IMG/VR virus record: IMGVR_UViG_3300020195_000009 | Coordinates: 1-64,000 of that record | Direction: 5' to 3' (one strand) | DNA: 64,000 nt | From: a virus | In this document: piece by piece, positions 3,246 to 47,779 of the stretch | How the letters are laid out: each line of letters begins with the position of its first letter | Position numbering within the stretch: position 1 is the first letter of the stretch | Made by a program: the position numbers and the translations under genes | Notes under the pieces: model-generated | Told to the model about the DNA's origin: nothing | Databases searched by the model: none | What the model saw: only the letters and a program-made list of their open reading frames with translations

Positions 3246-3253
3246 TACACCGG
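3246..3253 (-). promoter_or_regulatory. CCGGTGTA element upstream of the DUF1848 gene
   Basis: Minus-strand CCGGTGTAAATC lies about 10 bases before the GTG at 3236, in the divergent spacer. No Shine-Dalgarno is obvious between it and the start, so the transcript may be nearly leaderless. Confidence 0.5.
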
Positions 3254-5395: not shown

Positions 5396-5818
5396 TCAGG
5401 TCAGAAACTTGAGGATGGCCTCACCAACGTCCTTGTAACCAGGCTTCTTACCTGAGTCCTTCAAGGCCTTGGTCACCCCGTCGGTGAGCTTCTTGAGGTC
5501 CTTCTTGCCCTTGTCGGACTCCAGGTACTTGCGAGCCGCCTTACCCTTGTCGGTCTTGGGTTCGGGAGCCCCGTGGAACCAATCATCGAGAGCTTCTCGG
5601 ACGTCCTTCATCCCGAACTGACCCGCACCACCCTTCTTGGCCTCAGCGCTCATCCCGTGGGAGAGGTCGCTGATCGACTTGACGTTGTCTTGGAGGAACT
5701 TGGTTACAGGATCCGACTCGGCGGCGAACCGAGTGACAACACGGCGAACTAGCGCCTCCGGGGAGGACTTGGACTTGGCGAACCGAGCCGCTACCCGTAA
5801 CGCAAGAACATCGCTCAT
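5396..5818 (-). CDS. Hypothetical protein with N-terminal RVAARF / RVVTRF motifs
   Basis: The product has 140 residues. The ATG at 5818 overlaps the previous TGA (ATGA) and is chosen over an ATG at 5941 deep inside the neighbouring gene. The N-terminus has two copies of an Arg-Val-aromatic motif, ALRVAARFAKS and RRVVTRFAAES. The C-terminal half is Lys/Asp-rich and helical (DKGKAARKYLESDKGKKDLK). The family is unknown. The shared N-terminal motif suggests it belongs to a set of co-targeted or co-packaged proteins. Confidence 0.6.
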   Translation of the reverse strand: MSDVLALRVAARFAKSKSSPEALVRRVVTRFAAESDPVTKFLQDNVKSISDLSHGMSAEAKKGGAGQFGMKDVREALDDWFHGAPEPKTDKGKAARKYLESDKGKKDLKKLTDGVTKALKDSGKKPGYKDVGEAILKFLT

Positions 5819-7170
5819 GGGTTCACCCCATGCAACGCCTGGAAGAAGTCGTAGGGGCTCATCTCGGCGATCTTGGCGGCTTCCCTGAGGGTGTAGCGAT
5901 CCCGAAGATCCATGAGGGCTGCTGTCTTCGGCTCCTCCCACTCCTCAGCCGCCTTCTCCATGGCGATGTGGACCCAGGAGGGTTCCCCAGTCAGGCAGTT
6001 GGCAAGCTCTCGAATGGCCGTCGCTGCGTCAAACGTAAGCCGACCCCCGCCCCGCATACGGGTGAGGTTCTTGGGGGCCCCTTCCGAGATTTCCCACTTC
6101 AAGACCCACGGAATGAACACCCGCTCCATCTTGGTGATGGTGTCGTCCGAGAGCTGTTCCGTCTTACCGTTCACTCGGACGAAGAAGTCGTACTGATGGG
6201 CGTTGTTGATGTGCTTGAGTTTGCCTTCATCCCTCAGCTTCTTCATTCGGGTGAGGCGCTCTTTGCTGTACTTGGTGAAGACCTCGATTACGCTCTTCCG
6301 ACCGGCAACGGACGGGTCTTCATCATTGAGAAGTCCCGTGCCGACGAGGATCTCTTTGAGGCCAGCCCCACCCGACCGAGGCATCTTCTCGACGATGGCT
6401 TGGGTGGGCTTACCCCCCGGCCAAGCGAGGAACTTCTTCGGAGGCTTGGGGGAAATCCCGTCAGCCCAAGCCGTCCCAACGGTCTTCAGGTACTTCGGGG
6501 AAATCTTGGCGATGTTTTGAGCGAGGGGGACGTCCACCATGCTCGACTGCCAATCCTCTTCGACCTTGATGTACTTGCTCTCCGTATCTGTTTCTTCACG
6601 TTTCCAGTAGAAGCCCTCCCCTCGCTCCCGGAGAGCCACGAAGATGTGCTTCTGTTCCGTCTGTCCGTAGAGAACCCAAACCCTGTACCCAGGGTGGGTT
6701 GAGGAGAAGGATGACTTCGGCCAAACGAACTCAGGGATCGAGATAAACTTCCACTCCACGTTGGCAGGTGCCCCAGAGTCACCCCACGCCTTGTTGAAGT
6801 CCTGACCCTTATCCACCGCATCCGGCTCTCTCGCCTTCGGCTTCTCTCGCTTGGGAGCCGGCTCGGGGGTCGCTCGCCCCTTGCCCTCCAAGACATCCTT
6901 GGCCACGTTGATGTCGACCATCTTCTTGGGGTCACCCCCGCGATCAGGATGGTTCTCGAACGCCTTGGTTCGGTAAGCCTTCGTGACTTCCTCAGAGCTG
7001 GGGGAAGCAGTTGGAGGGAAGCCAAGAATGGTCTTGGCTTCCTGCATCGACATGGCGATGAGAAGACGAGCGTAGCGTTCCTCGAAGAACCTGGAGGCTA
7101 CCCTGTACTCGATTCGGTTGCGAAATCGAGCTACAACATGGCGTACGATTCGGATGTCGTCAGGCTGCAT
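5815..7170 (-). CDS. J-domain (DnaJ-like) protein
   Basis: The product has 451 residues. Residues 1-35 carry HVVARFRN and YRVASRFFEERY. A J-domain follows at about 40-95 (EAKTILGFPP ... VTKAYRTKAFENHPDRGGDP) with the HPD tripeptide needed to stimulate Hsp70. A Pro/Lys linker (about 98-120) leads to a large unassigned region with WPGGKPTQAIVEKMP and a helical C-terminus. It could recruit host DnaK or act inside the virion. The start lies directly after a hairpin (7172-7202) with no strong Shine-Dalgarno. MSMQEAKTILGF would be a later alternative start, but the N-terminal motif shared with neighbours supports the long form. Confidence 0.7.
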   Translation of the reverse strand: MQPDDIRIVRHVVARFRNRIEYRVASRFFEERYARLLIAMSMQEAKTILGFPPTASPSSEEVTKAYRTKAFENHPDRGGDPKKMVDINVAKDVLEGKGRATPEPAPKREKPKAREPDAVDKGQDFNKAWGDSGAPANVEWKFISIPEFVWPKSSFSSTHPGYRVWVLYGQTEQKHIFVALRERGEGFYWKREETDTESKYIKVEEDWQSSMVDVPLAQNIAKISPKYLKTVGTAWADGISPKPPKKFLAWPGGKPTQAIVEKMPRSGGAGLKEILVGTGLLNDEDPSVAGRKSVIEVFTKYSKERLTRMKKLRDEGKLKHINNAHQYDFFVRVNGKTEQLSDDTITKMERVFIPWVLKWEISEGAPKNLTRMRGGGRLTFDAATAIRELANCLTGEPSWVHIAMEKAAEEWEEPKTAALMDLRDRYTLREAAKIAEMSPYDFFQALHGVNP

Positions 7171-7214: not shown

Positions 7215-8498
7215 TCAGGCCTGTTTGACTTCTTGCTCCGAATTCTCATCCCGAAGAGTGTGGACCGCCTGACCCGTCTTGAGGGTTTGCTCCGTGATGA
7301 GTACCCGCTCAATCCTCGTGTCCCCAGGGAGGTCGTAGGAGAGCTGGCGAAGTGTAGACTCCACGATGGATCGAAGAGCACGAGCCCCAGTCGGGCGGGT
7401 CTTGGCTTCTTTGGCGATAGCCCGCAAGGCTTCAGGCTCAAAGTCCAGGTTCACCCCATCCATTTGGAACAAGGCCTTGAATTGCTTGACGATAGAGTTG
7501 CGAGGGTCCGTGAGAACCCGGACCATGTCATCCTCGGTCAACTCCACCGTGGTCGTGAGAACCGCCAACCGACCCATCATTTCGGGGATGATCCCGAACT
7601 CCAAGAGATCCTCTTCGGTGGTGGAAAGGTAGGTCTTGGTCTGGTCGATCTTCTCACGGGCCGAGGCTCCGAAGCCGAGACGAGACCCCTTGTTGATCCG
7701 AGCTTCCACGATGGGCTCGATCCCCGCAAACGAGCCCGCACAGATGAACAGGATGTTCGTGGTGTCGATCGTATCGTAGGCCGTCATCATACCGGCCTTG
7801 CCGGCACGAGGTACGTTGACCTTCGACCCCTCCAAGAGCTTCAAGAGCGACTGCTGGACACCCTCTCCCGTGACGTCACGGTACCCGGCTCGGTCCCGAC
7901 CACCCTTCCGTGCGATCTTGTCGATCTCATCGAGGAAGATGATGCCCCACTCCGCCCGTTGGATGTCCCCTTGAGCTTCCTGAATGAGCCCCTGGAGCAA
8001 CGTCTCTACATCATTGCCAACGTAGCCAGCTTGGGTGAGCCCCGTCGCATCCCCGACGAAGAACGGAACGTTGAGCATCCTCGCAATAGTGCGGGAAATA
8101 TGAGTTTTACCCGTGCCCGATGGACCGAGGAGAAGGATGTTGCTCTTGTCGATCTCGACGTCCTCTTTCTTGCCGTCGACTTCGATCTCGGTCTTCCCCT
8201 CCTTCGACTTTCGGCGCTTGAAGTGGTTGTAGACCGCAATGGCGATGTCCATCTTGGCCTTGTCTTGGCCGATGACGAAGTCGCTGAGGTAGGCCCGGAT
8301 TTCCTTGGGGGTCTTGAGGGCCTCTTCCTTGGCCTTGGTCTCGAAGTTTCCCTTGCGGGACCCAGCCTCCATCTCTTTGGTGGCCATCTCGACGCAGCGG
8401 TTGCAGATGAACGGACCCTCCTCAGGGTCCGCAGCAATGAGGTTTTTCACCTCGTTCCTGGGCCTTTTGCAGAAACCGCAGCAAACCGGATTGCTCAT
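7215..8498 (-). CDS. clpX: ClpX-like AAA+ unfoldase subunit
   Basis: The product has 427 residues, full length for ClpX. In order: an N-terminal zinc-binding domain (Cys 7/10 and 32/35, CCGFC ... CNRC); Walker A GPSGTGKT (about 125-132); pore loop GYVG (158-161); Walker B IIFLDEID (186-193); the loop GSRLGFG (about 271-277) at the position of the ClpP-contacting IGF loop; an Arg finger in PEMMGR (310); and sensor-2 GAR (371-373). It unfolds tagged proteins and feeds them to ClpP. No clpP is in this window, so it probably pairs with the host protease and may redirect degradation. It is preceded by a CCGGTGTA element and sits beside a metallopeptidase and a J-domain protein. Confidence 0.88.
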   Translation of the reverse strand: MSNPVCCGFCKRPRNEVKNLIAADPEEGPFICNRCVEMATKEMEAGSRKGNFETKAKEEALKTPKEIRAYLSDFVIGQDKAKMDIAIAVYNHFKRRKSKEGKTEIEVDGKKEDVEIDKSNILLLGPSGTGKTHISRTIARMLNVPFFVGDATGLTQAGYVGNDVETLLQGLIQEAQGDIQRAEWGIIFLDEIDKIARKGGRDRAGYRDVTGEGVQQSLLKLLEGSKVNVPRAGKAGMMTAYDTIDTTNILFICAGSFAGIEPIVEARINKGSRLGFGASAREKIDQTKTYLSTTEEDLLEFGIIPEMMGRLAVLTTTVELTEDDMVRVLTDPRNSIVKQFKALFQMDGVNLDFEPEALRAIAKEAKTRPTGARALRSIVESTLRQLSYDLPGDTRIERVLITEQTLKTGQAVHTLRDENSEQEVKQA

Positions 8499-8508
8499 AC
8501 TTGATCCT

Positions 8509-8516
8509 TACACCGG
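8509..8516 (-). promoter_or_regulatory. CCGGTGTA element upstream of clpX
   Basis: The minus strand reads TGATCCGGTGTAAGGATCA just before the clpX ATG at 8498. The core is flanked by an inverted TGATCC/GGATCA repeat, which could also serve as an operator. Confidence 0.5.
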
Positions 8517-13631: not shown

Positions 13632-14678
13632 TTAGACTGCCACCTTCATACTGAGAGCAGGCCAGGGGGTGTACCCTTCGAGAACGAAGTGCTTCATAAC
13701 CTCTTCGGTCGAAATCGTTGGGTCCATGAGCGCTTCGATGTCGGTGAGATCCTTGATTTGATCCGATATGATCAGCTTCGGGAGTGGGCGAGGCTCTCGG
13801 GTCAACTGCTCCTTGAGCGCAGGCACGTGGTCGTACTCGGCTTTTGAGCCATCTGGTTTCGCTGTGTATATGTGTGCATCGACGAGTGCGTGACCGAAGA
13901 TACCCGGCTCGATGCCGGAAAACCTTGAAAACAGGTGAATAAGCAAAGCATAGCTCGCGATGTTGTAACCGACACCTAATCCGACATCCGCGCTCCTCTG
14001 CGTCAGGTGGAGACAGAGGCGCCGCACAGCAGGGTAGTTCGGAACAGTCACCGAGAAGTGTCGATCCAGGTCGTCGCGGGAAGTCCTTGAGAGCACCTCA
14101 CCGACTGTTTCTTTAGATGCGGCCCGCTTGAGGTCTTCACCCACGAAGTGCTCCAGCGGACGTGGCTCGTTCTGCACGTTGAACATGAACAGGCAGTGGC
14201 ACGGCGGGAGCTTGCTCGTCTGAGCGTTTCCCGGAGCCCACGCTGAGACGATCATGCGCCGGGACATGGGGTTCTTCTTCAACTCGGCGAGAACCCACGC
14301 GATCTGGTCGTTGAACTTGCAGGCGTCCATACCGTCGATCGTGTGGTCCGACGAGTCGATGGTCCCGTGAACGGGGAACTGCCGCCAGAAGTTGCCGTAG
14401 GCGCTCGGGACCTTGCCGCTGGAATCCGCCCACGCGTCCCAGAACTTGCAGCCGTGCTGCTTGAGGATCGAGATGTCAGTCTGGCCGCTGAGGAACCATA
14501 ACATTTCAATGACGATGTTCTTCCAGCTCACCGACTTGGTGGTGAGGAGAGGGAAGCCGGTCCTCAAGTCGTGCTCGTAGTAGTACCCGAAGGTCGAGAG
14601 CGTATCCACGCCCGTTCGGTTTTCCTTGCGAGTCCCCGTCTCCAGCACGTGCTTCACGAGATCGATGTAGGCTTTCAC
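13632..14678 (-). CDS. thyA: Thymidylate synthase (ThyA type) with an insert
   Basis: The product has 348 residues from a GTG at 14678. Motifs are TRKENRTGVDTLSTFG, the active-site PPCHCLFMF (Cys 160), TQRSADVGLGVGYNIASYALL and DAHIYTA. It converts dUMP to dTMP with methylene-tetrahydrofolate. About 50 extra residues (about 169-219, EPRPLEHFVGEDLKR ... NYPAVRR) separate the catalytic Cys loop from the RSAD motif. The canonical enzyme has only a short hairpin there. It works with the DHFR encoded downstream. A GGGTGTA element lies 24 bases before the start. Confidence 0.9.
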   Translation of the reverse strand: MKAYIDLVKHVLETGTRKENRTGVDTLSTFGYYYEHDLRTGFPLLTTKSVSWKNIVIEMLWFLSGQTDISILKQHGCKFWDAWADSSGKVPSAYGNFWRQFPVHGTIDSSDHTIDGMDACKFNDQIAWVLAELKKNPMSRRMIVSAWAPGNAQTSKLPPCHCLFMFNVQNEPRPLEHFVGEDLKRAASKETVGEVLSRTSRDDLDRHFSVTVPNYPAVRRLCLHLTQRSADVGLGVGYNIASYALLIHLFSRFSGIEPGIFGHALVDAHIYTAKPDGSKAEYDHVPALKEQLTREPRPLPKLIISDQIKDLTDIEALMDPTISTEEVMKHFVLEGYTPWPALSMKVAV

Positions 14679-14701: not shown

Positions 14702-14709
14702 TACACCCA
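14702..14709 (-). promoter_or_regulatory. GGGTGTA element upstream of thyA
   Basis: Minus-strand TGGGTGTAGTGAG lies in the 59-base spacer before the thyA GTG. It differs from the core by one base (G for C). Confidence 0.4.
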
Positions 14710-15463: not shown

Positions 15464-16020
15464 GAGCGGCGAGCTTTCATCCTGGCGATGACCTCGGACC
15501 AAGACTTCACTCGAAGGTCATCTAGGCCAAGGTTCCGGGTGTTAGGGCACTGCCATAGCATGGCAGTGCCCTGAGGGTGACGTTCTGCCCAGCCCGACAC
15601 GTGAGAAGGATTGTCATCCAGGAGCCCGCCCCCTTGGACCATGTGTTTGCTCGACGTGTAGATGATATCCTTGGACGAGAAGGAGAAGTGTTCCTTGAGC
15701 CACTCCGTCCGCTCGTAGGTCCAGTTGCGGCTATGTTGGGGCGTCGTCACGGCCACCACGTGAACGAAGGTCCGAAGCTCCCGGATCGCTTCGAGGGCCT
15801 CCGGGTAGGCCTTGAGAGACTGGCAGAATCCGTGCTTCTCGAACAGGGTGAAGCACACCTTTTTCTGGTCTTCGGTCAGGACCGTGAAGATGTCCCACAC
15901 GTCGAAGTCGGCCGGTTGGTACCTTCGGCCCGTGATGACGGCCATGATGTCGAGAGCCGGAGTTTGGAAGTCACATAGAACTTCATCTACGTCTACGAGG
16001 AGAACCTCACTGTCAGTCAT
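15460..16020 (-). CDS. 5'(3')-deoxyribonucleotidase-like HAD phosphatase
   Basis: The product has 186 residues. HAD motif I is VDVDEVLCDF (nucleophile and acid Asp), motif II lies in VVAVTTPQ, and motif IV is LLDDNPSH. The cap region WDIFTVL ... FCQSLKAYPEA resembles NT5C-type enzymes. It removes the phosphate from dNMPs, perhaps trimming host pools or unwanted dUMP. It forms part of a nucleotide cluster with thyA and folA. The 3' third of the gene carries a perfect 13-bp inverted repeat (15544-15572). Confidence 0.8.
   Translation of the reverse strand: MTDSEVLLVDVDEVLCDFQTPALDIMAVITGRRYQPADFDVWDIFTVLTEDQKKVCFTLFEKHGFCQSLKAYPEALEAIRELRTFVHVVAVTTPQHSRNWTYERTEWLKEHFSFSSKDIIYTSSKHMVQGGGLLDDNPSHVSGWAERHPQGTAMLWQCPNTRNLGLDDLRVKSWSEVIARMKARRS
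15544..15572. repeat. Perfect 13-bp inverted repeat inside the deoxyribonucleotidase gene
   Basis: AGGGCACTGCCAT at 15544-15556 is followed by a 3-base loop and its exact complement ATGGCAGTGCCCT at 15560-15572. It lies in coding sequence (residues near QGTAMLWQCP), where such a strong hairpin is not required by the protein. It could be an RNA processing, pausing or protein-binding site. Confidence 0.75.
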
Positions 16021-16547: not shown

Positions 16548-16874
16548 TTACACCGGATCCCGAGCATCGGCTCGAAGACGAGCCTGGTCCGCCATCATAC
16601 GATCAAACTTCTTGCGGTTGGACTTGCCGGCCTTGACGATCAGGCTCAGTTCCGTCTGAAGGTTTGCCCGGACCTTGGGGTCGGAGGCGGTCTTGATAGC
16701 CCTGGAGGTGCGCACGAACTCCTGACGGGCTCGAACCAGCCAGTTGGACAGGCCCTTGATCTCGCCCGTCACGTCCTCGCCCGTCCCCCAGCAGCGGAAG
16801 CAGATGCCCCGGCAAACATGGGAAAAGCGGGAAAGTACCCCTTCACCCTTACAACGTTCGCATGTAGTTCCCAT
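16548..16874 (-). CDS. Protein with DnaJ-type CxxCxGxG zinc motif
   Basis: The product has 108 residues. Two repeats of the DnaJ zinc-centre type, CERCKGEG (about 5-12) and CFRCWGTG (about 25-32), flank CRG. The rest is a long basic helix pair (LVRARQEFVRTSRAIK; KSNRKKFDRMMADQARLR). The knuckles could bind unfolded protein or nucleic acid. The last codons GAT CCG GTG TAA contain the CCGGTGTA element used for the next gene. Confidence 0.6.
   Translation of the reverse strand: MGTTCERCKGEGVLSRFSHVCRGICFRCWGTGEDVTGEIKGLSNWLVRARQEFVRTSRAIKTASDPKVRANLQTELSLIVKAGKSNRKKFDRMMADQARLRADARDPV
16549..16556 (-). promoter_or_regulatory. CCGGTGTA element upstream of the zinc-ribbon gene
   Basis: CCGGTGTAAAGTAGG overlaps the stop codon of the 108-residue gene and lies 16 bases before the ATG at 16532. 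Confidence 0.45.
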
Positions 16875-17389: not shown

Positions 17390-18565
17390 TTAGATGACTT
17401 CGACGCTAGTACCCGTGACAGGAGCCTCAGCCACCTCGACCGCGTAGATTTTGCTCCAATCGACCCAAAGGTCGGCGCCAATCTCCGTCTCGATAGCCCA
17501 CCTATCGTGGATTTCTTGGGTCCGGCACCAAAAGCCCCCCTCATCCACATCAAGGTACCCGGCAGGTTCGGACAGATAGATCCCGATCTCCAGCTCTACG
17601 GACACGGGGAGAACCCGAGCCCTTCCCTGGAGGAGTTTGGCCACATTGGGAGTGGCAATCCAAAACCCACTCGTTCTACCTTCGATGACCTCTGGGAAGG
17701 GGGTCGCTGGCTTGGTTCTCCCCCCTTGGATAGCCGCCGAGGCCAACTGTCGAGCAAGGTCTCTCACCCAACCCGTTGCCGTAGCTCCAAGAATGGCCCG
17801 TCGAACGTCGAACCTAAGGTTCCGGGCAGTCGGGTCTTGGATGGGGTACTTCGAGGTCCCAAAGCCCTTGAGGCCTCGTATGCGGTCCAACCCACCTCCA
17901 GAGGGCTTACCTAGCGGGAAGAAGTCCTGGAAGGCTCTGGCCATCCCTGTTGAGGAAGCGAGAAGGGTCGGAAGAGCGCTTTGAACTTGGGAAGTAAGCA
18001 TCCGTCGTCCTGCTCTGGACGTGAACAGGAGCCGGCTGTCCCCATCGTCTCGGAGCAGGGCCGTTTGCGGTATCCGCTCCAGGAGGCGCTCTAAGACATC
18101 CCGCTCCCGCCCTTGGTCGAAGGCCCATTGGACGATGAAACCCTCTACCTCGGGCTTTAGGCGCTTCGCAGGGAGCACCATGTTGCCACTCTCCCTTGGG
18201 ACGGGAGCCGGCTGGTAGAGGTCGTCGTCCGTGATGCGAGCTAAAGCCCGGCCGGTCTCAGCAGACACGAGAAGGATTGAGTCCCCGATCTGCGTGTATT
18301 CATCTGCGAGGTACCCGGCTTCTTCTTGAACGTCATCGTGTGGGAAGGACTTTTTTAACTCCTGGATCAGACGCTCTTTGAGCCAGTCTGCCGGTCGCCC
18401 TTCCGTTCGAGCCTGCTTGAAAAGGTCAGATATTTCAGGGGTCTGTTGAACCACGACACGAGCAAGTCGAAGAAGCCCAGGGCTTGGGTTCGTGTGCGAG
18501 AGGACCTTCACGTCCACTCGTGACAAACCTACCTCAGGGGCAGGCTTCGTAAGCTCGTCGATCAT
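17390..18565 (-). CDS. Hypothetical protein of 391 residues
   Basis: No family recognised. The N-terminus includes SPGLLRLARVVVQQT, a faint relative of the RV-motif seen in the 5-10 kb genes. Residues about 50-80 are helical. The centre is Arg-rich (LLERIPQTALLRDD; SRAGRRMLTSQVQ). The region about 225-290 contains Gly-rich SGGGLDRIRGLKGFG. The C-terminus is beta-rich and acidic (EIGIYLSEPAGYLDV). There is no membrane segment or catalytic signature. Its ATG overlaps the upstream TGA. Confidence 0.6.
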   Translation of the reverse strand: MIDELTKPAPEVGLSRVDVKVLSHTNPSPGLLRLARVVVQQTPEISDLFKQARTEGRPADWLKERLIQELKKSFPHDDVQEEAGYLADEYTQIGDSILLVSAETGRALARITDDDLYQPAPVPRESGNMVLPAKRLKPEVEGFIVQWAFDQGRERDVLERLLERIPQTALLRDDGDSRLLFTSRAGRRMLTSQVQSALPTLLASSTGMARAFQDFFPLGKPSGGGLDRIRGLKGFGTSKYPIQDPTARNLRFDVRRAILGATATGWVRDLARQLASAAIQGGRTKPATPFPEVIEGRTSGFWIATPNVAKLLQGRARVLPVSVELEIGIYLSEPAGYLDVDEGGFWCRTQEIHDRWAIETEIGADLWVDWSKIYAVEVAEAPVTGTSVEVI

Positions 18566-18816
18566 AGCTTGGGGTAATGCCGGATGTAGCGACTACACGC
18601 AAGACAGTGCATGACCTGATCCCCGCGTTTGATGAGACCCCTGTTCCGGGTATCTACGTCTTGAGGAAGCGTTGCGATTTGGACGCTGGCATCTGGATGG
18701 GGGCAAGCCAGTTGGGACTCTTCCACAAGGTCAGCAAGGCGAGCCTCATCCTCGACTCGCCCTGCTTTTCGAGCGGTCTCATGATCCCGAATGAGCTGCC
18801 AGTTTCGAGTTCCCAC
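18562..18816 (-). CDS. Small hypothetical protein with Cys pairs
   Basis: The product has 84 residues. The N-terminus is helical and charged (WQLIRDHETARKAGRVEDE). ACPHPD and HCLACSRYIRHY provide four possible Cys/His zinc ligands, as in a degenerate zinc ribbon. It is coupled to the next gene by ATGA and follows the AAA ATPase by 40 bases. Confidence 0.55.
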   Translation of the reverse strand: MGTRNWQLIRDHETARKAGRVEDEARLADLVEESQLACPHPDASVQIATLPQDVDTRNRGLIKRGDQVMHCLACSRYIRHYPKL

Positions 18817-18856: not shown

Positions 18857-20443
18857 TCAGGTACTTGAACCCCCACCTCTGATCATCTTGAACTGCTCGC
18901 TCCTGTGATTAGAGGCCAAACGAGCACGAATTCCGTCGTCTACGGTTTCGTCGTAACCGACCCACTCCAGGATCTCTTTGATCTCGTCCGTCATCGTCTT
19001 GATGATGCGAGGGCGACGGGACAGCTCGGTACCCAGAATCTCTTCATCGAGACCAGGCTTTCCTTGCGTGAACGACTCAACCATCGCCTCTTGGATCGAT
19101 TGCTCGATCTCACGACCAACGAGGTTTTTCCCCTTGTCTGCGAGGTCTGCGAGGTTGAAGCTGGACATGTCTTGCCCGGACTTTTTGGCGTGGATCTTCA
19201 GGATGTCGATCCGGTCTTCTTCGTTGGGAAGATCAAAGAAAAACCGTTGGGGCATCCGGTTGACCATCTCGACCGGGAGGGTCTTGAGACTGTTGGCCGT
19301 CATGGCAATGCACACAGGAGTCTTGGACTCCTGAGCCCACGTGGACAGGATGCCGAGAAGACGAGACGTGGTACCAGCATCCGACTGAGCCGACGACTGG
19401 CCACCCGCGAGAGACTTCTCCGCCTCATCGATCCACATGACGCAGGGGGAGACGGACTCCACGATGCGGAGGGCTCGGTAGAGGTTACCTTCCGAGTCTC
19501 CAACGCCCGAAGACCGGAGCTTTCCCATCTCGAATTGAACGAGGGGGAGGTCCCATTCCCGAGCCATGGCTTTGGCGCAGACACTCTTGCCGCACCCGTA
19601 GACGCCGACGAGGAGAACACCCCGAGGCGGCTTGAGGCCGAACTTTTGCCCCTTGTCGGACCAACACGCCTTGGACTTCTTAGCCCAAGCCTTGAATCGC
19701 TGGGCTCCGCCGATCGTGTCGAAGGTCTCTTCCGTCGTATCGACGAACGACACAAGGTCCGTTTTTTTGAGCTGGTTTCGCTTGTACTCCGCCACGAACT
19801 TGGGATCGACTCGACGGGGCTCAACAGGGTCCTTCTTGGTCCTCACGACCGACTGAGTGATCGCCTGCTCAACTTCGTACGAGGTCATCCCCTTGAAGAT
19901 GTTGGCGGAATCCTTCGGTACTGGCGACCGGAGTTGCTTGCAGAACGTCTCCACGAGCGAGTTGATTTCCTCGCCCGTCATCCCGGTGTCCTGAACGACC
20001 TCGATGTACCGCTGGAGCTTTTCCGGAATCACCTTCCGGGGACCCGCGAAGATCAAGCACTTGACGATGCGAAGGTCCTGATGGAGCTGGTGGATGATGT
20101 TGAGAACCCGGCGAACGACTTGCTCATCCTTGAGGAACCGATCCGGGTCCGTGATGATGTAGAAGTTCTCGTTGTCCTTCGGGTCATCCTGGTAAATCTT
20201 GATCAGGGCATCGTTGATGGTCGCCGCATCCGGCGAAACCGTATGCGAACGGCTAGACCAATCACGGATGATGTTCCCGATCGGCTGGAGCCCAAGGGCT
20301 CCGTTGTAAACCCAGGTCCGGTTCTCGTGCTTCTTCATTTGCTCGTGAAAGCGAACGATGAAGCGGTCTTCTTCGTCGGTCACGAAGTAGAGGGCGCGAG
20401 TTAGAGACCGAAGGTGGTGGATCAGTTCGGGGGTCATTTTCAA
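18857..20443 (-). CDS. Ycf46-like AAA+ ATPase
   Basis: The product has 528 residues. The N-terminal 200 residues form the alpha/beta region typical of Ycf46 proteins (RALYFVTDEEDRFI; NFYIITDPDRFL; LIFAGPRKVIPEKLQ). The AAA module has Walker A GVYGCGKS (about 280-287), Walker B CVMWIDEAEK (about 334-343), sensor 1 CIAMTANS and Arg-finger region MVNRMPQRFFFDLP. It ends with a helical lid and an Arg-rich tail. Chloroplast and cyanobacterial Ycf46 have no settled function. Here it follows DUF1257 and DUF2997 genes, a known association, and has its own terminator and promoter-like element in front. Confidence 0.82.
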   Translation of the reverse strand: MKMTPELIHHLRSLTRALYFVTDEEDRFIVRFHEQMKKHENRTWVYNGALGLQPIGNIIRDWSSRSHTVSPDAATINDALIKIYQDDPKDNENFYIITDPDRFLKDEQVVRRVLNIIHQLHQDLRIVKCLIFAGPRKVIPEKLQRYIEVVQDTGMTGEEINSLVETFCKQLRSPVPKDSANIFKGMTSYEVEQAITQSVVRTKKDPVEPRRVDPKFVAEYKRNQLKKTDLVSFVDTTEETFDTIGGAQRFKAWAKKSKACWSDKGQKFGLKPPRGVLLVGVYGCGKSVCAKAMAREWDLPLVQFEMGKLRSSGVGDSEGNLYRALRIVESVSPCVMWIDEAEKSLAGGQSSAQSDAGTTSRLLGILSTWAQESKTPVCIAMTANSLKTLPVEMVNRMPQRFFFDLPNEEDRIDILKIHAKKSGQDMSSFNLADLADKGKNLVGREIEQSIQEAMVESFTQGKPGLDEEILGTELSRRPRIIKTMTDEIKEILEWVGYDETVDDGIRARLASNHRSEQFKMIRGGGSST

Positions 20444-20460
20444 AGGCTCCGTGATTAATG

Positions 20461-20468
20461 TACACCGA
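20461..20468 (-). promoter_or_regulatory. TCGGTGTA element upstream of the Ycf46-like gene
   Basis: The minus strand reads CGTCGGTGTACATTAATC 18 bases before the ATG at 20443, and just downstream of the strong hairpin at 20478-20514. Terminator followed by element followed by gene is good evidence for a promoter. Confidence 0.6.
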
Positions 20469-20477
20469 CGAAAGCGA

Positions 20478-20514
20478 AGAGCCGCACCTTTCTAACTCAG
20501 AAAGGTGCGGCTCT
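20478..20514. terminator. Strong 16-bp stem terminator-like hairpin
   Basis: AGAGCCGCACCTTTCT (20478-20493) and AGAAAGGTGCGGCTCT (20499-20514) are exact complements around a 5-base loop. It lies between the DUF1257 stop (20534) and the next promoter-like element. There is no T-run, so it may act with Rho, stabilise the upstream mRNA, or be a processing site. Confidence 0.7.
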
Positions 20515-20533
20515 CACGCTAACCCTTCGGTGT

Positions 20534-20866
20534 TCACGCCATCCGGCAGAACTGGGTCACGTCCCCGTTCTTCTCGATGATGCGTTCCCCGAGGATGTGA
20601 CCCTCTTTGAAGGCCACGGCCCGGAACTTGGCCTCAGCATAGTCCTGACGGAGCAAGCCGAGCTTGCCCTGGTCGGCTCGGTAGTAGTCGACATCCCCGC
20701 TCCTGATCACCCCCGTCTTGAGGTTGATCTCGGCGCCGTTGAAGTCGCCGGAGAGCATGTGGATCGTGTCCCCCTGCTCTCGGAACTCGATGTTCTTGCC
20801 CTTGAGGGCCGTGATGAGGTGCTCGCGCTCCTTCATGTCCGACTGAACCGTAACTCGATGCGACAT
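20534..20866 (-). CDS. DUF1257 (Ycf35-like) protein
   Basis: The product has 110 residues, family length. MSHRVTVQSDMKEREHLI begins with the SH motif typical of DUF1257. The central GDFNGAEINLKTG and DYYRADQGKLGLLRQDYA match the conserved block. Its biochemical role is unknown. It lies between the DUF2997 gene and the Ycf46-like ATPase, the usual order of this conserved set. The start has a clear Shine-Dalgarno (AAGGAAAGGAAGAG). Confidence 0.82.
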   Translation of the reverse strand: MSHRVTVQSDMKEREHLITALKGKNIEFREQGDTIHMLSGDFNGAEINLKTGVIRSGDVDYYRADQGKLGLLRQDYAEAKFRAVAFKEGHILGERIIEKNGDVTQFCRMA

Positions 20867-20894
20867 GTTCTCTTCCTTTCCTTGAACTTGTGAG

Positions 20895-20920
20895 GGGTGA
20901 TAGGGTTTACCCTATCACCC
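20895..20920. repeat. 11-bp perfect palindrome between the DUF2997 and DUF1257 genes
   Basis: GGGTGATAGGG (20895-20905), loop TTTA, CCCTATCACCC (20910-20920). It overlaps the DUF2997 stop codon and lies 30 bases before the DUF1257 Shine-Dalgarno. It could be an operator or a transcription-attenuating hairpin. There is no T-run on the minus strand. Confidence 0.65.
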
Positions 20921-21100
20921 GCTGTTGACTTCGTGAACCGTCGGGCAGTTGCCGTCGGGGAGGTGCTCGTCCGAGACCAGCGTACCCATCTGCTGGGTCA
21001 CCTTGCTGATTTCGTTGCAGTCGTGATCCCGACGGTTGATGACCTCGTGGACCACCTTTCCGTCTGGCTTGAAGGTGACCTTGTATTCCATCGATTCCAT
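20915..21100 (-). CDS. DUF2997 family small protein
   Basis: The product has 61 residues. MESMEYKVTFKPDGKVVHEV is the two-strand pattern ExxVxxxPDGxVxxEV of DUF2997, followed by a Cys region (HDCNEISKVTQQMG; GNCPTVHEV). Members usually accompany DUF1257 and Ycf46-like proteins in cyanobacteria and phages, and their role is unknown. An ATG at residue 4 is a possible later start. Confidence 0.75.
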   Translation of the reverse strand: MESMEYKVTFKPDGKVVHEVINRRDHDCNEISKVTQQMGTLVSDEHLPDGNCPTVHEVNSG

Positions 21101-21140: not shown

Positions 21141-21776
21141 TTACTCTACACCGTTTCCCCCGAAACGAACAGTAGCTCCTCGTTTGACGACGACAACCCC
21201 TTCTTCGGGAGCTTCGGCGCCTTTCGGGCCAGCCCATGGGTCTTTGGGTGGCGTCGGAGAAGATCCTGACAACATTCTACCACTTTGGCTCGGAGTGTTC
21301 AGAGCTAGAAGTTGAGGCGTTAGCCTCACTGGCTCCTTTTTTTGTGGATCCTCGGTTGAAACATGAGCCTGAGGTTGGGGTTTTGGGGGACTCTCCGGTA
21401 CCATTTCGATCGGAGGTGGGGCTTCTTCCACCGGGAGACTCATGATCGGAATGGGAACCGAGACCGCAGGCTCCACGAGGTCTCGTGGGTCCATCCACGC
21501 AGATTGCCCTCTTACCGTAGGCAGGGGCCCAGGGTCAAACATCTTGAATTGTTTGCCTTGGATCTGCGAAAACCTTGGGTCAGAGGGATCCATTCGAGGG
21601 ACTTCCGAAAAGAGCCGCTTCTCCCAGGTCATCACCCGCTGGTCGAACTTGCTGGTACCATGCTGAGACCGGGTACATTCGGGTTGAACGCACCGATCAC
21701 AAAACTGCAACTTGAAGTCCTCGTAAGGGACCTGTTGATTGTTGCACTCCCCGAGCTGGTCCAGACGCCTGACCAT
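21141..21776 (-). CDS. Hypothetical Pro-rich protein with N-terminal Cys motif
   Basis: The product has 211 residues. The N-terminus has FCDRCVQPECTRS (C-x2-C-x4-C, about 25-37), a potential metal site. Residues about 100-170 are a Pro/Glu-rich low-complexity linker (EEAPPPIEMVPESPPKP). The C-terminus is Gly/Val-rich. It is directly downstream of the polymerase gene. No family is assigned. A disordered adaptor is plausible but unproved. Confidence 0.55.
   Translation of the reverse strand: MVRRLDQLGECNNQQVPYEDFKLQFCDRCVQPECTRSQHGTSKFDQRVMTWEKRLFSEVPRMDPSDPRFSQIQGKQFKMFDPGPLPTVRGQSAWMDPRDLVEPAVSVPIPIMSLPVEEAPPPIEMVPESPPKPQPQAHVSTEDPQKKEPVRLTPQLLALNTPSQSGRMLSGSSPTPPKDPWAGPKGAEAPEEGVVVVKRGATVRFGGNGVE
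21147..21154 (-). promoter_or_regulatory. ACGGTGTA element upstream of the DUF2997-DUF1257 pair
   Basis: Minus-strand AAACGGTGTAGAGTAAG overlaps the end of the Pro-rich gene and lies about 46 bases before the DUF2997 ATG at 21100. Confidence 0.45.
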
Positions 21777-24870: not shown

Positions 24871-25291
24871 CAATCACCACAACTGTATACACCCCCTGCC
24901 GCCAGAACTGGACCAGCTCCGCAACCAAACGTCGAGCATTTGGGTCTTCGATGCCAGAGGGCTCAAAGCACCATGGCATCTTAGTGGCCGTTGGGACGCA
25001 CTCCTTAGGTCGATAGAAAGGGCAGGGATCTCGTCTCTCACACACACGATTGTCAACAGGCAACTTTCGCAGAGCCCCATCGGGGGGGATCCCAAGAGCC
25101 TTCACAAGGGGTGAAGTCCACCCCGCCAGAGCATGATCCATGACCGCTTTCTGGACCTTTGTAAGCAAGCTCATTGCGGGGACCTCTTGGGCCGGAGCCC
25201 ACGTGTCTTCCCACCGATCCCCGTACTGGTAGATGAGGTACAACTCCAAGTCCCCCAGCTCAGAGGTCTTGATTTTTAGGCGTCTAGGCAC
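24857..25291 (-). CDS. Hypothetical protein with four-Cys cluster
   Basis: The product has 144 residues from GTG 25291, overlapping the previous stop. After a helical half comes VCERRDPCPFYRPKEC and PWCFEP (C-x5-C-x7-C-x9-C, about 90-115), a possible Zn or Fe-S site. The C-terminus LVAELVQFWRQGVYTVVVID is helix plus strand. It overlaps the polymerase start by 14 bases, so the two are probably co-translated. Confidence 0.6.
   Translation of the reverse strand: MPRRLKIKTSELGDLELYLIYQYGDRWEDTWAPAQEVPAMSLLTKVQKAVMDHALAGWTSPLVKALGIPPDGALRKLPVDNRVCERRDPCPFYRPKECVPTATKMPWCFEPSGIEDPNARRLVAELVQFWRQGVYTVVVIDAEQ
24888..24895 (-). promoter_or_regulatory. GGGTGTA element before the DNA polymerase gene
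   Basis: Minus-strand GGGGTGTATACAG, within the end of the upstream gene, lies 17 bases before the polymerase ATG. It is a one-mismatch copy of the CGGTGTA element. Confidence 0.35.
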
Positions 25292-45133: not shown

Positions 45134-47779
45134 TTAGCTTCTCCGGTTCAGGAGGTTCCCGGACAGTCGGAAGACGCTCGCTATGGTCGTGTTGTTTGCC
45201 GCCAAGAATTTGACGCTGTTCTCAGCGTCAAATTCCGCCCATCGAACGAAGAGAACCATGAACAAGGTCCCCTTCTTACCAAGGACCGAGTCCGAAGTCG
45301 TCTCCATGACGGTCGGCATGACCACCTTGTGGATACGTTCGTCGGATAGAGGCTGACCAAAGGCGTTCGGCTTGTAAGAAGTCGGAACCGAAGGAAAGTA
45401 GGTTCGATTCTCAATGTCCGCGTCGATCAAAGCCCGAGTGAACGTCACCGACTCCGGATTCGGGACATACGGAATGACCGAGTGGGTCCGCAAGAAGCCG
45501 GTTGAGGCGTTGAACTCCGCTACGAAGATGCCGAGATCCCCATCCAGCTCGTGCTCCCCTGACCACCCACCACCATCCTTAATGACCCCGCCCGTCTGAA
45601 CGTAAGCGAAGGGGTAGGGGTAGCCTTCTCCTTGAGAACCAGATCCGGTCGTGATCGAATAGAGGAAAGGCGAGATCCATCTGGGAACCATCGTGAGGCT
45701 CGTACCAAGGAGCGCGGAGCGGACCGTCTGCGAAGCTCTAGCCTCATAGTAAACCGTCATCTGAACGCTGGATTGAGGCATCGGCCGGATGGCCTGATAA
45801 TCCACGTCGATGATGTCACCAGGGGCAGCCGTCCCACCACTGAGGGTGAGAAGACGACCTTTCGCATCGAGCGATCCACCTGCACCCGGAAGGGGGCCTC
45901 CGTTGATCCTTACTTGAATGAGCGTCTCAACTCGCTCAGGGAGCACGTACTTCGTTGACGTAGCCACACCCGAATCAGCCGACAGCGTATGCGTGATGGT
46001 GCTTGTCTTGTACTGAAGCTGAACCTCTCGATGAGGGGCATCGATCGCCTGCGTCTGCATCGCACTGAAGCTGACAGGAGCGGTTGCAGGTAGAGCCGGA
46101 GGTCCTGGGTTGTTGATGTAGAAACTAGGGGTCCCGAAGTCATCAGTCGGCGTCTTGGTCAGACCCACTCCAGGGGGGTAACCAATGAGAAGATCGATGT
46201 ACATCGGTTCGGTGGTCAACCCACCGATCGGAGGAGTCCCAAGGGTGATAAAAACGTTTCCAGGTGGGTACTGACCTAGCCCGGAAATACTCGTAACAGG
46301 AAACGGAACATAGAGAGGGATGGCCGTAGGGGAGGCTTGAGCGAAACCTACTTCAATCCCCTTTTCAAGGGCAGTCGTCCCGTGGATCCTAGCCCCCACA
46401 ACATCCACAATTCGAGTCCCCGAGGGAGCACGACTGATGAACCCGATCGCCCCAGAAAAAGGGTACTGCGCCATCGCCGCAGGATTGATCGTTACGACTG
46501 TTCCCGTGGTCCACGTAGCCGTGGAGACGTTGGGATCTCCAGGGGAAATTTGGAATGTCAGCACTTCGTAGACCACACGGTCAGAAAAGAACCGGCGGGT
46601 GCAGTCAAACTGACCTATGAAATCAGCTCCGGGGGTGTCCCCAGTGAGGACACCATCACCTGGTAGGGTTCCGATTTCATCGGCCCAAAAGAGGGTATGA
46701 CCGGCAACGCCGCCCCCAAGGGCCGTGACTTCCCACTCCGTCTTGAGCGAGTTGTCGAGGAGGTAGTTGAAGTTTTTCTCCCCCACCTCCAAATAGCTGC
46801 CCCAACCCGTGATGGAGGTAGCTTGACGAAGATCAGCCACATCGTTGGCTACAAAGATGTCGTAGAGCAAACCATCAGGACGATCCGACGGTCCAGGTGA
46901 TGCAACCCCACCGTTATGGTTAAGGTTACGCTCGAAGGCTGTTGTATTTCTACGGAAAACAGCCACGAGGGGGATGGCGTACATGTACCCATCAACTGAA
47001 TCAATCGTGTTTGTGGGAAGGCCATCCCCTGCCCTCCAAAGTCCAGGGTCGCCGTTAGCGCTCTGGTTTTGGTATACGAAGGCTGTAACCACCCCGTTGG
47101 GTGCCCCCGCACTAGGAGGAACCGAGTTGGCCAAGACTACGGGATCATCGATTCCGTTGGGGTACGCGAAAATGTCGACGCCTGGGATGACCCGGATTCG
47201 GTATTGAATCTGAACCCGTTTGGTCGTCTCAGAGGCGACGATGGCATCCAGGATGTCATCCGCAAAGTTGAGGACCGCATCATCCGCTGCTTGAATCTTG
47301 ACGTTGCCGTTCCGCCAGATCCGACCCGTAGGGCTCTTGCCGTCCGTGCTGGGGGAAGCCGAGATGAGCTTCCTCCACACTTCGAGAATCACGATGTCGG
47401 TACGCTTGGCTCCGTTACCAGCAGGACCGGCTCCCAAGTCCAACGTGTTCGTAGAAGCACTTCCAGTGTAGGCGAGAAGGATGGGCCAGCCGTTGACGAG
47501 GGCCGTGAGGTTGTTTGCTAGGACCAGGGTGTTCGCGATGACCGACGGGACGAAGAGCGAGGCGGTTGGGTCCGACTTGTTGAGGTGGTCGTTCGTGAGC
47601 CACCCAGAAGGCGCCAGCCTTCTGACCAGCCCCAAGGCTGCCCCGAAGTCCAAGTCCTCGGAGAGGTTGAGTTCCTTGTCGAGAACAGGCTTGCCAGCCT
47701 GGAACGCAACAGACTCAAAACTCCGGCCATCCGGGTCGAGGTACCCACTGACTGCCGGGCCTAAATTCTTGGTCCCCAT
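45134..47779 (-). CDS. Tail/adhesin structural protein (881 residues), paralogue of the 1521-residue protein
   Basis: The N-terminal 430 residues match the 33703-38268 product motif for motif (FQAGKPVLDKELNLSEDL; DIVILEVWR; RVQIQYRIRVIPG; GDPGLWRAGDG; DGYMYAIPLVAVFRRN). The C-terminal half diverges (FEVLTFQISPGDPNV; LIQVRINGGPLPGAGGS). It is beta-rich with no membrane segment. The ATG at 47779 overlaps the stop of a micro-ORF. Probably an adaptor or fibre subunit that arose by duplication. Confidence 0.65.
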   Translation of the reverse strand: MGTKNLGPAVSGYLDPDGRSFESVAFQAGKPVLDKELNLSEDLDFGAALGLVRRLAPSGWLTNDHLNKSDPTASLFVPSVIANTLVLANNLTALVNGWPILLAYTGSASTNTLDLGAGPAGNGAKRTDIVILEVWRKLISASPSTDGKSPTGRIWRNGNVKIQAADDAVLNFADDILDAIVASETTKRVQIQYRIRVIPGVDIFAYPNGIDDPVVLANSVPPSAGAPNGVVTAFVYQNQSANGDPGLWRAGDGLPTNTIDSVDGYMYAIPLVAVFRRNTTAFERNLNHNGGVASPGPSDRPDGLLYDIFVANDVADLRQATSITGWGSYLEVGEKNFNYLLDNSLKTEWEVTALGGGVAGHTLFWADEIGTLPGDGVLTGDTPGADFIGQFDCTRRFFSDRVVYEVLTFQISPGDPNVSTATWTTGTVVTINPAAMAQYPFSGAIGFISRAPSGTRIVDVVGARIHGTTALEKGIEVGFAQASPTAIPLYVPFPVTSISGLGQYPPGNVFITLGTPPIGGLTTEPMYIDLLIGYPPGVGLTKTPTDDFGTPSFYINNPGPPALPATAPVSFSAMQTQAIDAPHREVQLQYKTSTITHTLSADSGVATSTKYVLPERVETLIQVRINGGPLPGAGGSLDAKGRLLTLSGGTAAPGDIIDVDYQAIRPMPQSSVQMTVYYEARASQTVRSALLGTSLTMVPRWISPFLYSITTGSGSQGEGYPYPFAYVQTGGVIKDGGGWSGEHELDGDLGIFVAEFNASTGFLRTHSVIPYVPNPESVTFTRALIDADIENRTYFPSVPTSYKPNAFGQPLSDERIHKVVMPTVMETTSDSVLGKKGTLFMVLFVRWAEFDAENSVKFLAANNTTIASVFRLSGNLLNRRS

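Follow-up and report, generated by a model that had tools for sequence, protein, structure and literature searches.

The first 64 kb (positions 1-64,000, hereafter the window) of the 286,005-base virus record IMGVR_UViG_3300020195_000009 carry, on the minus strand, three adjacent genes for a DUF2997-like protein, a Ycf35-type DUF1257-like protein and a Ycf46-type tandem AAA ATPase, transcribed in this order. The presence and order of these genes, as described in an initial annotation of the window, are confirmed, and the analysis reported here establishes that the three-gene set is real, widely conserved and uncharacterised, the copy in this giant phage being a divergent version. A survey of gene neighbourhoods joins the Ycf35, Ycf46 and DUF2997 families into one recurrent gene set, for which a natural fusion also exists, so that two orphan-family questions become one testable complex.

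Recurrence of the gene set in viruses and bacteria

The gene order of the window is shared by two IMG/VR relatives, L006/L009 (110 kb; L006 was omitted from the pools of open reading frames (ORFs), being the same contig as L009) and L007 (513 kb), whose AAA proteins are 78% and about 62% identical, respectively, to that of the window. A wider scan of viral data yielded 80 viral loci, in which our own profiles detected DUF1257 in 31 ORFs, DUF2997 in 30 and an additional small family, p123, in 21. Two scans of the viral data with DUF2997 returned mostly known loci and one new contig each, and both viral contigs picked by DUF2997 alone carry the AAA gene, DUF1257 and p123. DUF1257 is present in 21 named phage records; for 14 of them, AAA coordinates were among the rows listed, each time with the two genes a few kb apart. 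The set occurs in named phages of Rhizobium, Pseudomonas, Aeromonas and Rhodobacter, where p123 is often its fourth gene, and cultured representatives (Rhizobium RHph_I4, Pseudomonas SM1 and PA_L9, Aeromonas HJ05, Rhodobacter RcKickapoo) make its deletion feasible. The Rhizobium and Aeromonas phages and viruses related to them have the order AAA – p212 – DUF1257 – DUF2997 – p123 – RepO-like (replication-protein-O-like). RHph_I4 and HJ05 resemble the window in keeping AAA, DUF1257 and DUF2997 together in a phage, and differ from it in that the AAA gene comes first, p123 and p212 are present, and the window's flanking genes p211 and p391 (see below) are absent. In the window, the genes follow an order of their own, p123 is not recognised, and a hairpin of conserved position separates the small pair from the motor. 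A tblastn search of named phages with the window's two small proteins, as well as pattern scans in viral contigs, gave no matches.

The p123 family itself (80-150 amino acids (aa), RASxVE motif) is encoded next to DUF2997 or DUF1257, or close by, in both phages and bacteria (L002, L004, L005, L039, L044, L048, L049, L120, L210 and others). The members tested had no family match, and p123 was not found in the window phage by BLAST or profile, in a search run without a positive control.

Among bacterial loci selected by their AAA gene, five cyanobacteria have DUF1257 directly after a Ycf46-type AAA, and DUF1257, DUF2997 or p123 stand in other arrangements in Planctomycetes, Verrucomicrobia, Clostridia and one actinobacterium; 9 of the 42 bacterial AAA rows chosen in this way for the tree (i.e., excluding the DUF2997-chosen L203-L222) are linked to the pair. 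DUF2997 is present in 4 of 245 Clostridia and 31 of 199 Planctomycete genomes. In a sample of 20 regions selected by DUF2997 (three of the four Clostridia matches, the fourth being the genome of L109, and 17 Planctomycete places), the AAA gene was found in 19 (exception L207), as was DUF1257 (exception L203). In two clostridial loci (L204 and L205), DUF1257 and DUF2997 are fused as one 184-aa protein adjoining the AAA; both domains of the L204 fusion pass their Pfam cut-offs, and such a natural fusion speaks for the two small proteins acting together as a single unit. A MiaB/RimO-like radical-SAM gene stands with the fusion and the AAA in L204 and L205, adjoining the fusion in L204, and in L203, L096 and L109 the AAA has an NrdG-like radical-SAM gene next to it.

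In cyanobacteria, DUF2997 occurs in 68 of 117 genomes, and 20 places (six top-ranked and 14 second or weaker copies) were inspected. All six best matches read DUF2997 – DUF1257 – CxxCxxC ORF, the last being ferredoxin-like, and one of them (L237) has a weak AAA match (121 bits) several kb away; the second or weaker copies have a Ycf46-type AAA in 11 of 14 cases, within 11-kb regions. Loci L235-L252 are of two kinds, one with a ferredoxin-like gene and the other with a Ycf46-type AAA. A cyanobacterial cluster DUF2997–ycf35 (DUF1257)–fed7 is in print (PMC4284462); its two small genes are those of the window, lie next to each other and follow the window's order, and the difference is in its third gene, a ferredoxin and not an AAA, the available part of that source making no mention of a phage version. 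Overall, DUF1257–DUF2997 is the fixed core, and either an AAA or a ferredoxin is its third gene. The initial proposal that these families travel together in phages and cyanobacteria can be extended to Planctomycetes and Clostridia, with the correction that the best cyanobacterial pairs are accompanied by a ferredoxin-like gene and not by an AAA.

The neighbourhood is not a product of chance: the survey did not show the three genes far apart in relatives, they recur side by side in phages that are unrelated and in no fewer than three bacterial phyla, and a natural fusion exists besides. The view that three unrelated passenger genes adjoin by chance in the phage, which could draw on the many AAAs of Ycf46 type that stand without the pair, is contradicted by this survey and appears most improbable.

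In the open-access literature searched, which leaves most subscription papers and bioRxiv preprints outside, no description of the AAA–DUF1257–DUF2997 set was found. Many red-algal plastid genomes have kept Ycf35 and Ycf46, which belong to a group of four genes with a shared presence/loss pattern (PMC5940233); that source could assign no function to the ycf genes. A 2015 study, as cited in PMC12172450, tied Ycf46 to CO2 utilisation; mentions of these families beyond the cyanobacterial cluster belong to plastid, soil or proteome contexts (PMC5940233, PMC8141849, PMC12172450, PMC13131479, PMC12016546).

Properties of the three proteins

The AAA gene (18857-20437, minus strand; 526 aa; Pfam AAA 1.4e-20; phrog_8638 2e-83) is taken to start at the ATG at 20437, which has a CGGAG-type ribosome site upstream and is preferred over the TTG at 20443 of the ORF list. 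The first domain (about residues 1-200) is AAA-like and devoid of a P-loop, with no GK(S/T) in residues 1-220; the second has a Walker A motif (GVYGCGKS at 278), a Walker B motif (DE at 337-338) and the invariant sensor Asn (N382). In an AlphaFold model (predicted local distance difference test (pLDDT) 88.8), residues 1-504 align to residues 212-763 of p97 with a Z of 24.8 over 461 aligned positions, and with a root-mean-square deviation of 9.9, a high value attributable to the different placement of the two domains relative to each other. The model suggests a p97/Cdc48-like tandem AAA protein with no N-domain and a P-loop-less first domain, scoring 67.9 bits against the NCBIfam CDC48 model (TIGR01243), vs. 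a cut-off of 802.65. It shares its AAA type with plastid and cyanobacterial Ycf46, which in some cyanobacteria is directly followed by DUF1257, and differs from it by a long branch, by replacement of the RKGR region with NRMPQRF and by a Gly at the pore-loop position.

The AAA domain additionally matches models of the anti-phage ATPase IetA (8.4e-16), and phages keep the set, which would be expected if the motor, with the help of the pair, disarmed a host protein in counter-defence or host take-over. Since the IetA score extends no further than the shared AAA domain, the NCBIfam IteA model gives as little as 53.7 of 510 bits, and the same set is present in many bacterial genomes, we consider such a role very unlikely.

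The AAA tree (114 rows) was built with the exclusion of L059-L064 and L066-L088 (FtsH-like or other AAAs), L132-L168 except L135 and L136, the near-duplicates L030, L033 and L034, the second AAA of L135, and any AAA below 300 bits or 400 aa; its "unlinked" label includes contigs that end near the AAA. Among AAAs with a residue at the pore-loop position, an aromatic one is found in 10 of 57 pair-linked vs. 39 of 55 unlinked proteins. The idea that a non-aromatic pore loop marks motors linked to the pair was nevertheless rejected, since the tree provides five independent pairs (starred branches) and no support. In the 513-kb relative, the AAA gene (L007:5995-8940) contains an intein-like insert (C-terminal LITHNC) immediately before Walker B, a placement that fits an ATPase whose catalysis is needed; the DNA polymerase gene of the same contig (L007:328-4578) has an insertion of similar size.

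The DUF1257-like protein (20534-20866, minus strand; 110 aa) was recognised by a profile grown from two annotated phage members, both of which pass the Pfam cut-off, with the window clade held out (E 3.4e-8, 33.6 bits), and by hhalign (E 7e-12); PF06868 (gathering score 22.2 bits) gave no match to it at E 0.1. It has the MSH start and the Q-x-Y motif common to the family, in which near-invariant positions are few (Met1, Ser2, His3, Gln74, Tyr76, Gly89). A search of 20 viral records with PF06868 gave zero matches, L009 and L007 included, and must have been too blunt, because our own profile does detect DUF1257 in both. Based on its AlphaFold model (pLDDT 85.5), KA1-like and BamC-like folds were considered and not trusted (best Foldseek E 0.25, best Z 6.0).

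The DUF2997-like protein (20915-21100, minus strand; 61 aa) matches phrog_23133 (1.2e-6) and falls under the 24.1-bit gathering score of Pfam DUF2997 (PF11211; 15.8 bits, E 0.013); hhalign gives E 5.5e-4 with a probability of only 30, and hmmsearch with a held-out profile does not list it. All 34 aligned rows, the window's own among them, retain the GxxC-type cysteine (Cys28), and the putative assignment rests on this conserved cysteine together with the position beside DUF1257.

Hairpin, palindrome and upstream motif

The gaps before the three genes measure 40 bases (p211–DUF2997), 48 bases (DUF2997–DUF1257) and 96 bases (DUF1257–AAA). The last of these contains a terminator-like hairpin (20478-20514, minus strand; 16-nt arms, 5-nt loop) with an RNA folding z-score of -7.8, which exists as initially described and is conserved in position in both relatives checked: in L006/L009 and L007 it occurs at the same place with a different stem sequence, each being far stabler than its shuffles. 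Its T-tail is weak, and a terminator scan (at least five T in eight after the stem) does not list it, so that read-through is likely. A terminator-like hairpin retained between DUF1257 and AAA in both relatives supports the earlier suggestion that pair and motor may be expressed at different levels.

A 26-bp palindrome (20895-20920; 12-nt arms, 2-nt centre) overlies the DUF2997 stop codon and has an RNA folding z-score of -5.8. It had been annotated as a perfect palindrome between the first two genes; it is perfect except at its 2-nt centre. Given a single copy in the 286-kb record and no counterpart in L006/L009 or L007, a role as a shared operator was rejected. Inverted repeats with arms of at least 10 and loops of at most 8 number six in the window, vs. 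0, 2, 0, 1 and 0 in five dinucleotide shuffles. Further strong ones (arms 11-13) lie inside genes at 45206-45235, 15544-15572 and 7017-7042.

Both units, the DUF2997–DUF1257 pair and the AAA gene, are preceded in the window by CGGTGTA. Its core GGTGTA lies at 20461-20466 (minus strand) before the AAA gene and at 21147-21152 (minus strand) before DUF2997, where it overlaps the last codons of p211 (in L007 it is intergenic), and it is present at six of six such junctions in the window, L006/L009 and L007. On the minus strand of the window, 8 of 15 copies are located at most 60 bases upstream of a gene start, the top value of all hexamers (p 4e-7, before correction for 4096 hexamers); the corresponding counts are 5 of 10 in L009 and 4 of 5 in L007, vs. 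1 of 5 in the plus-strand control. In the window and in both relatives, no other hexamer is as enriched ahead of gene starts as GGTGTA, the counts from the three viruses not being fully independent, as orthologous genes are held in common. Judged by this distribution, it is a lineage-wide upstream signal and a candidate lineage-specific promoter. Examples at other gene starts on the minus strand of the window (consensus C-GGTGTA-n-R) include 3246-3251, 8509-8514, 14702-14707, 16549-16554 and 24888-24893.

The promoter-like elements initially assigned to the pair and to the ATPase are thus upheld in that GGTGTA precedes both, and not as private control, the motif being general to the lineage. 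GGTGTANANTAA has only two exact copies in 286 kb, but was rejected as a private regulatory pair for the same reason and because the longer pattern, with up to two mismatches, occurs 7 times in the window vs. 6.6 by chance. A sigma-70-type scan, near chance in total (8 sites vs. 5.5 expected in shuffles), listed no site directly before the AAA gene and one nearby (21301-21274) inside the upstream gene.

Proposed mechanism and its alternatives

As the best-supported reading, and not as a result, we infer that a DUF1257–DUF2997 adaptor and a Cdc48-like remodelling motor constitute one machine, a proposal to which we assign about an even chance. The AAA protein would form a Cdc48/p97-like double ring, with ATP hydrolysed by the second domain and the P-loop-less first domain acting as a scaffold. 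The N-domain of p97 holds adaptors; the phage protein is predicted to be without it, and DUF1257 and DUF2997 may take over that role as a tight pair, which would dock on the ring and bring or position a client. The likeness to p97/Cdc48 with Ufd1–Npl4 consists in the predicted tandem AAA fold and, as a working idea, in small adaptors; the missing N-domain, the first ring lacking a P-loop and the unrelatedness of the small proteins are the differences. The invariant cysteine of DUF2997 would belong to the working part of the pair, most likely touching a thiol- or iron–sulfur (Fe–S)-bearing client; the ferredoxin and radical-SAM neighbours in bacteria are a hint of Fe–S or thiol chemistry. The pair could be transcribed with the DNA polymerase operon up to the terminator-like hairpin, and the motor made by read-through or from its own GGTGTA start, which would probably leave the pair in excess over the ring. 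In the phage, the machine would probably act on an enzyme of replication or of nucleotide metabolism. An "inhibitor-like" complex, one of the options raised initially, is not supported.

Several observations weigh against this adaptor-and-motor proposal. No pair was found near 33 bacterial and 24 viral Ycf46-type AAAs among the 114 tree rows, and the best-scoring cyanobacterial pairs stand without an AAA, which implies that the pair is able to work apart from it. The pore-loop position is occupied by Gly or Ala in the window's clade and mostly by Leu or an aromatic residue elsewhere, so that pulling of a chain through the pore may be weak. Finally, the DUF2997 assignment is weak by profile, the DUF1257 model has no clear relative among solved folds, and, of the proteins searched, none encoded near the window's set was recognised as a radical-SAM protein or a ferredoxin.

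Rubisco activase and MoxR-type ATPases reset their targets with ATP, and by analogy the pair may itself be the client, i.e., a small thiol/redox or Fe–S handling protein that the AAA, as an activase, resets with ATP. The invariant cysteine of DUF2997, the radical-SAM neighbours in bacteria and the presence of the pair with a ferredoxin-like gene and no AAA in all six best cyanobacterial matches fit this explanation; the small size of the proteins and the scarcity of other invariant residues, DUF1257 having few near-invariant positions, do not, and we regard it as possible, if doubtful.

In the window, the gene for DNA polymerase A directly precedes the set, with genes for a primase-type zinc-finger protein and a DnaB-like helicase further upstream, and in other phages a replication-protein-O-like gene adjoins it. 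This setting would suit a replication accessory, with the AAA serving the replisome in the manner of a helicase or clamp loader and the small proteins as its specificity factors. However, the bacterial copies detailed are mostly without an adjoining replication gene (an exception is L096, with a DnaG-primase-like ORF on the opposite strand), and the top fold and profile matches are to Cdc48/p97, not to clamp or helicase loaders, making an accessory of this kind unlikely.

Extending the adaptor-and-motor proposal, prokaryotes and phages may own a Cdc48-like remodelling system whose N-domain and Ufd1–Npl4 adaptors have given way to a DUF1257–DUF2997 dimer. Ycf35 and Ycf46 would then be partner families of one machine that repairs or recycles thiol/Fe–S-dependent enzymes, whereby phages would keep replication or nucleotide enzymes working in infection. 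This broader picture is speculative and, taken as a whole, rather unlikely. A class I/II ribonucleotide reductase of the phage was rejected as a client, none having been found in the 286-kb record (class III was not searched).

Flanking genes and other features of the window

The complete order of transcription on the minus strand is p211 – DUF2997 – DUF1257 – AAA – 84 aa – 391 aa. The conserved upstream neighbour p211 (21141-21776, minus strand) has a CxxCxxxC-type N-terminus, occupies the same place in L009 and L007, and had no family match in Pfam and PHROG-type profile searches. Downstream, the 84-aa neighbour (18562-18816, minus strand) is retained in L006/L009, and the 391-aa neighbour p391 (17390-18565, minus strand), for which family searches gave no match, is retained in L009 and L007. 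An equivalence of p211 with p212, or of p391 with the RepO-like protein, was rejected, as there is no profile similarity in either case.

On the 3' side of the set are genes for a 5'-nucleotidase, a RecA-like protein, thymidylate synthase, HU and dihydrofolate reductase (DHFR). The thymidylate synthase (13632-14678) is longer than that of L009 (348 vs. 277 aa), and its Pfam match is split into two stretches, a possible sign of an insertion. The window also encodes a ClpX-like ATPase with a zinc-finger match (7215-8498) and a DnaJ-domain protein (5815-7170).

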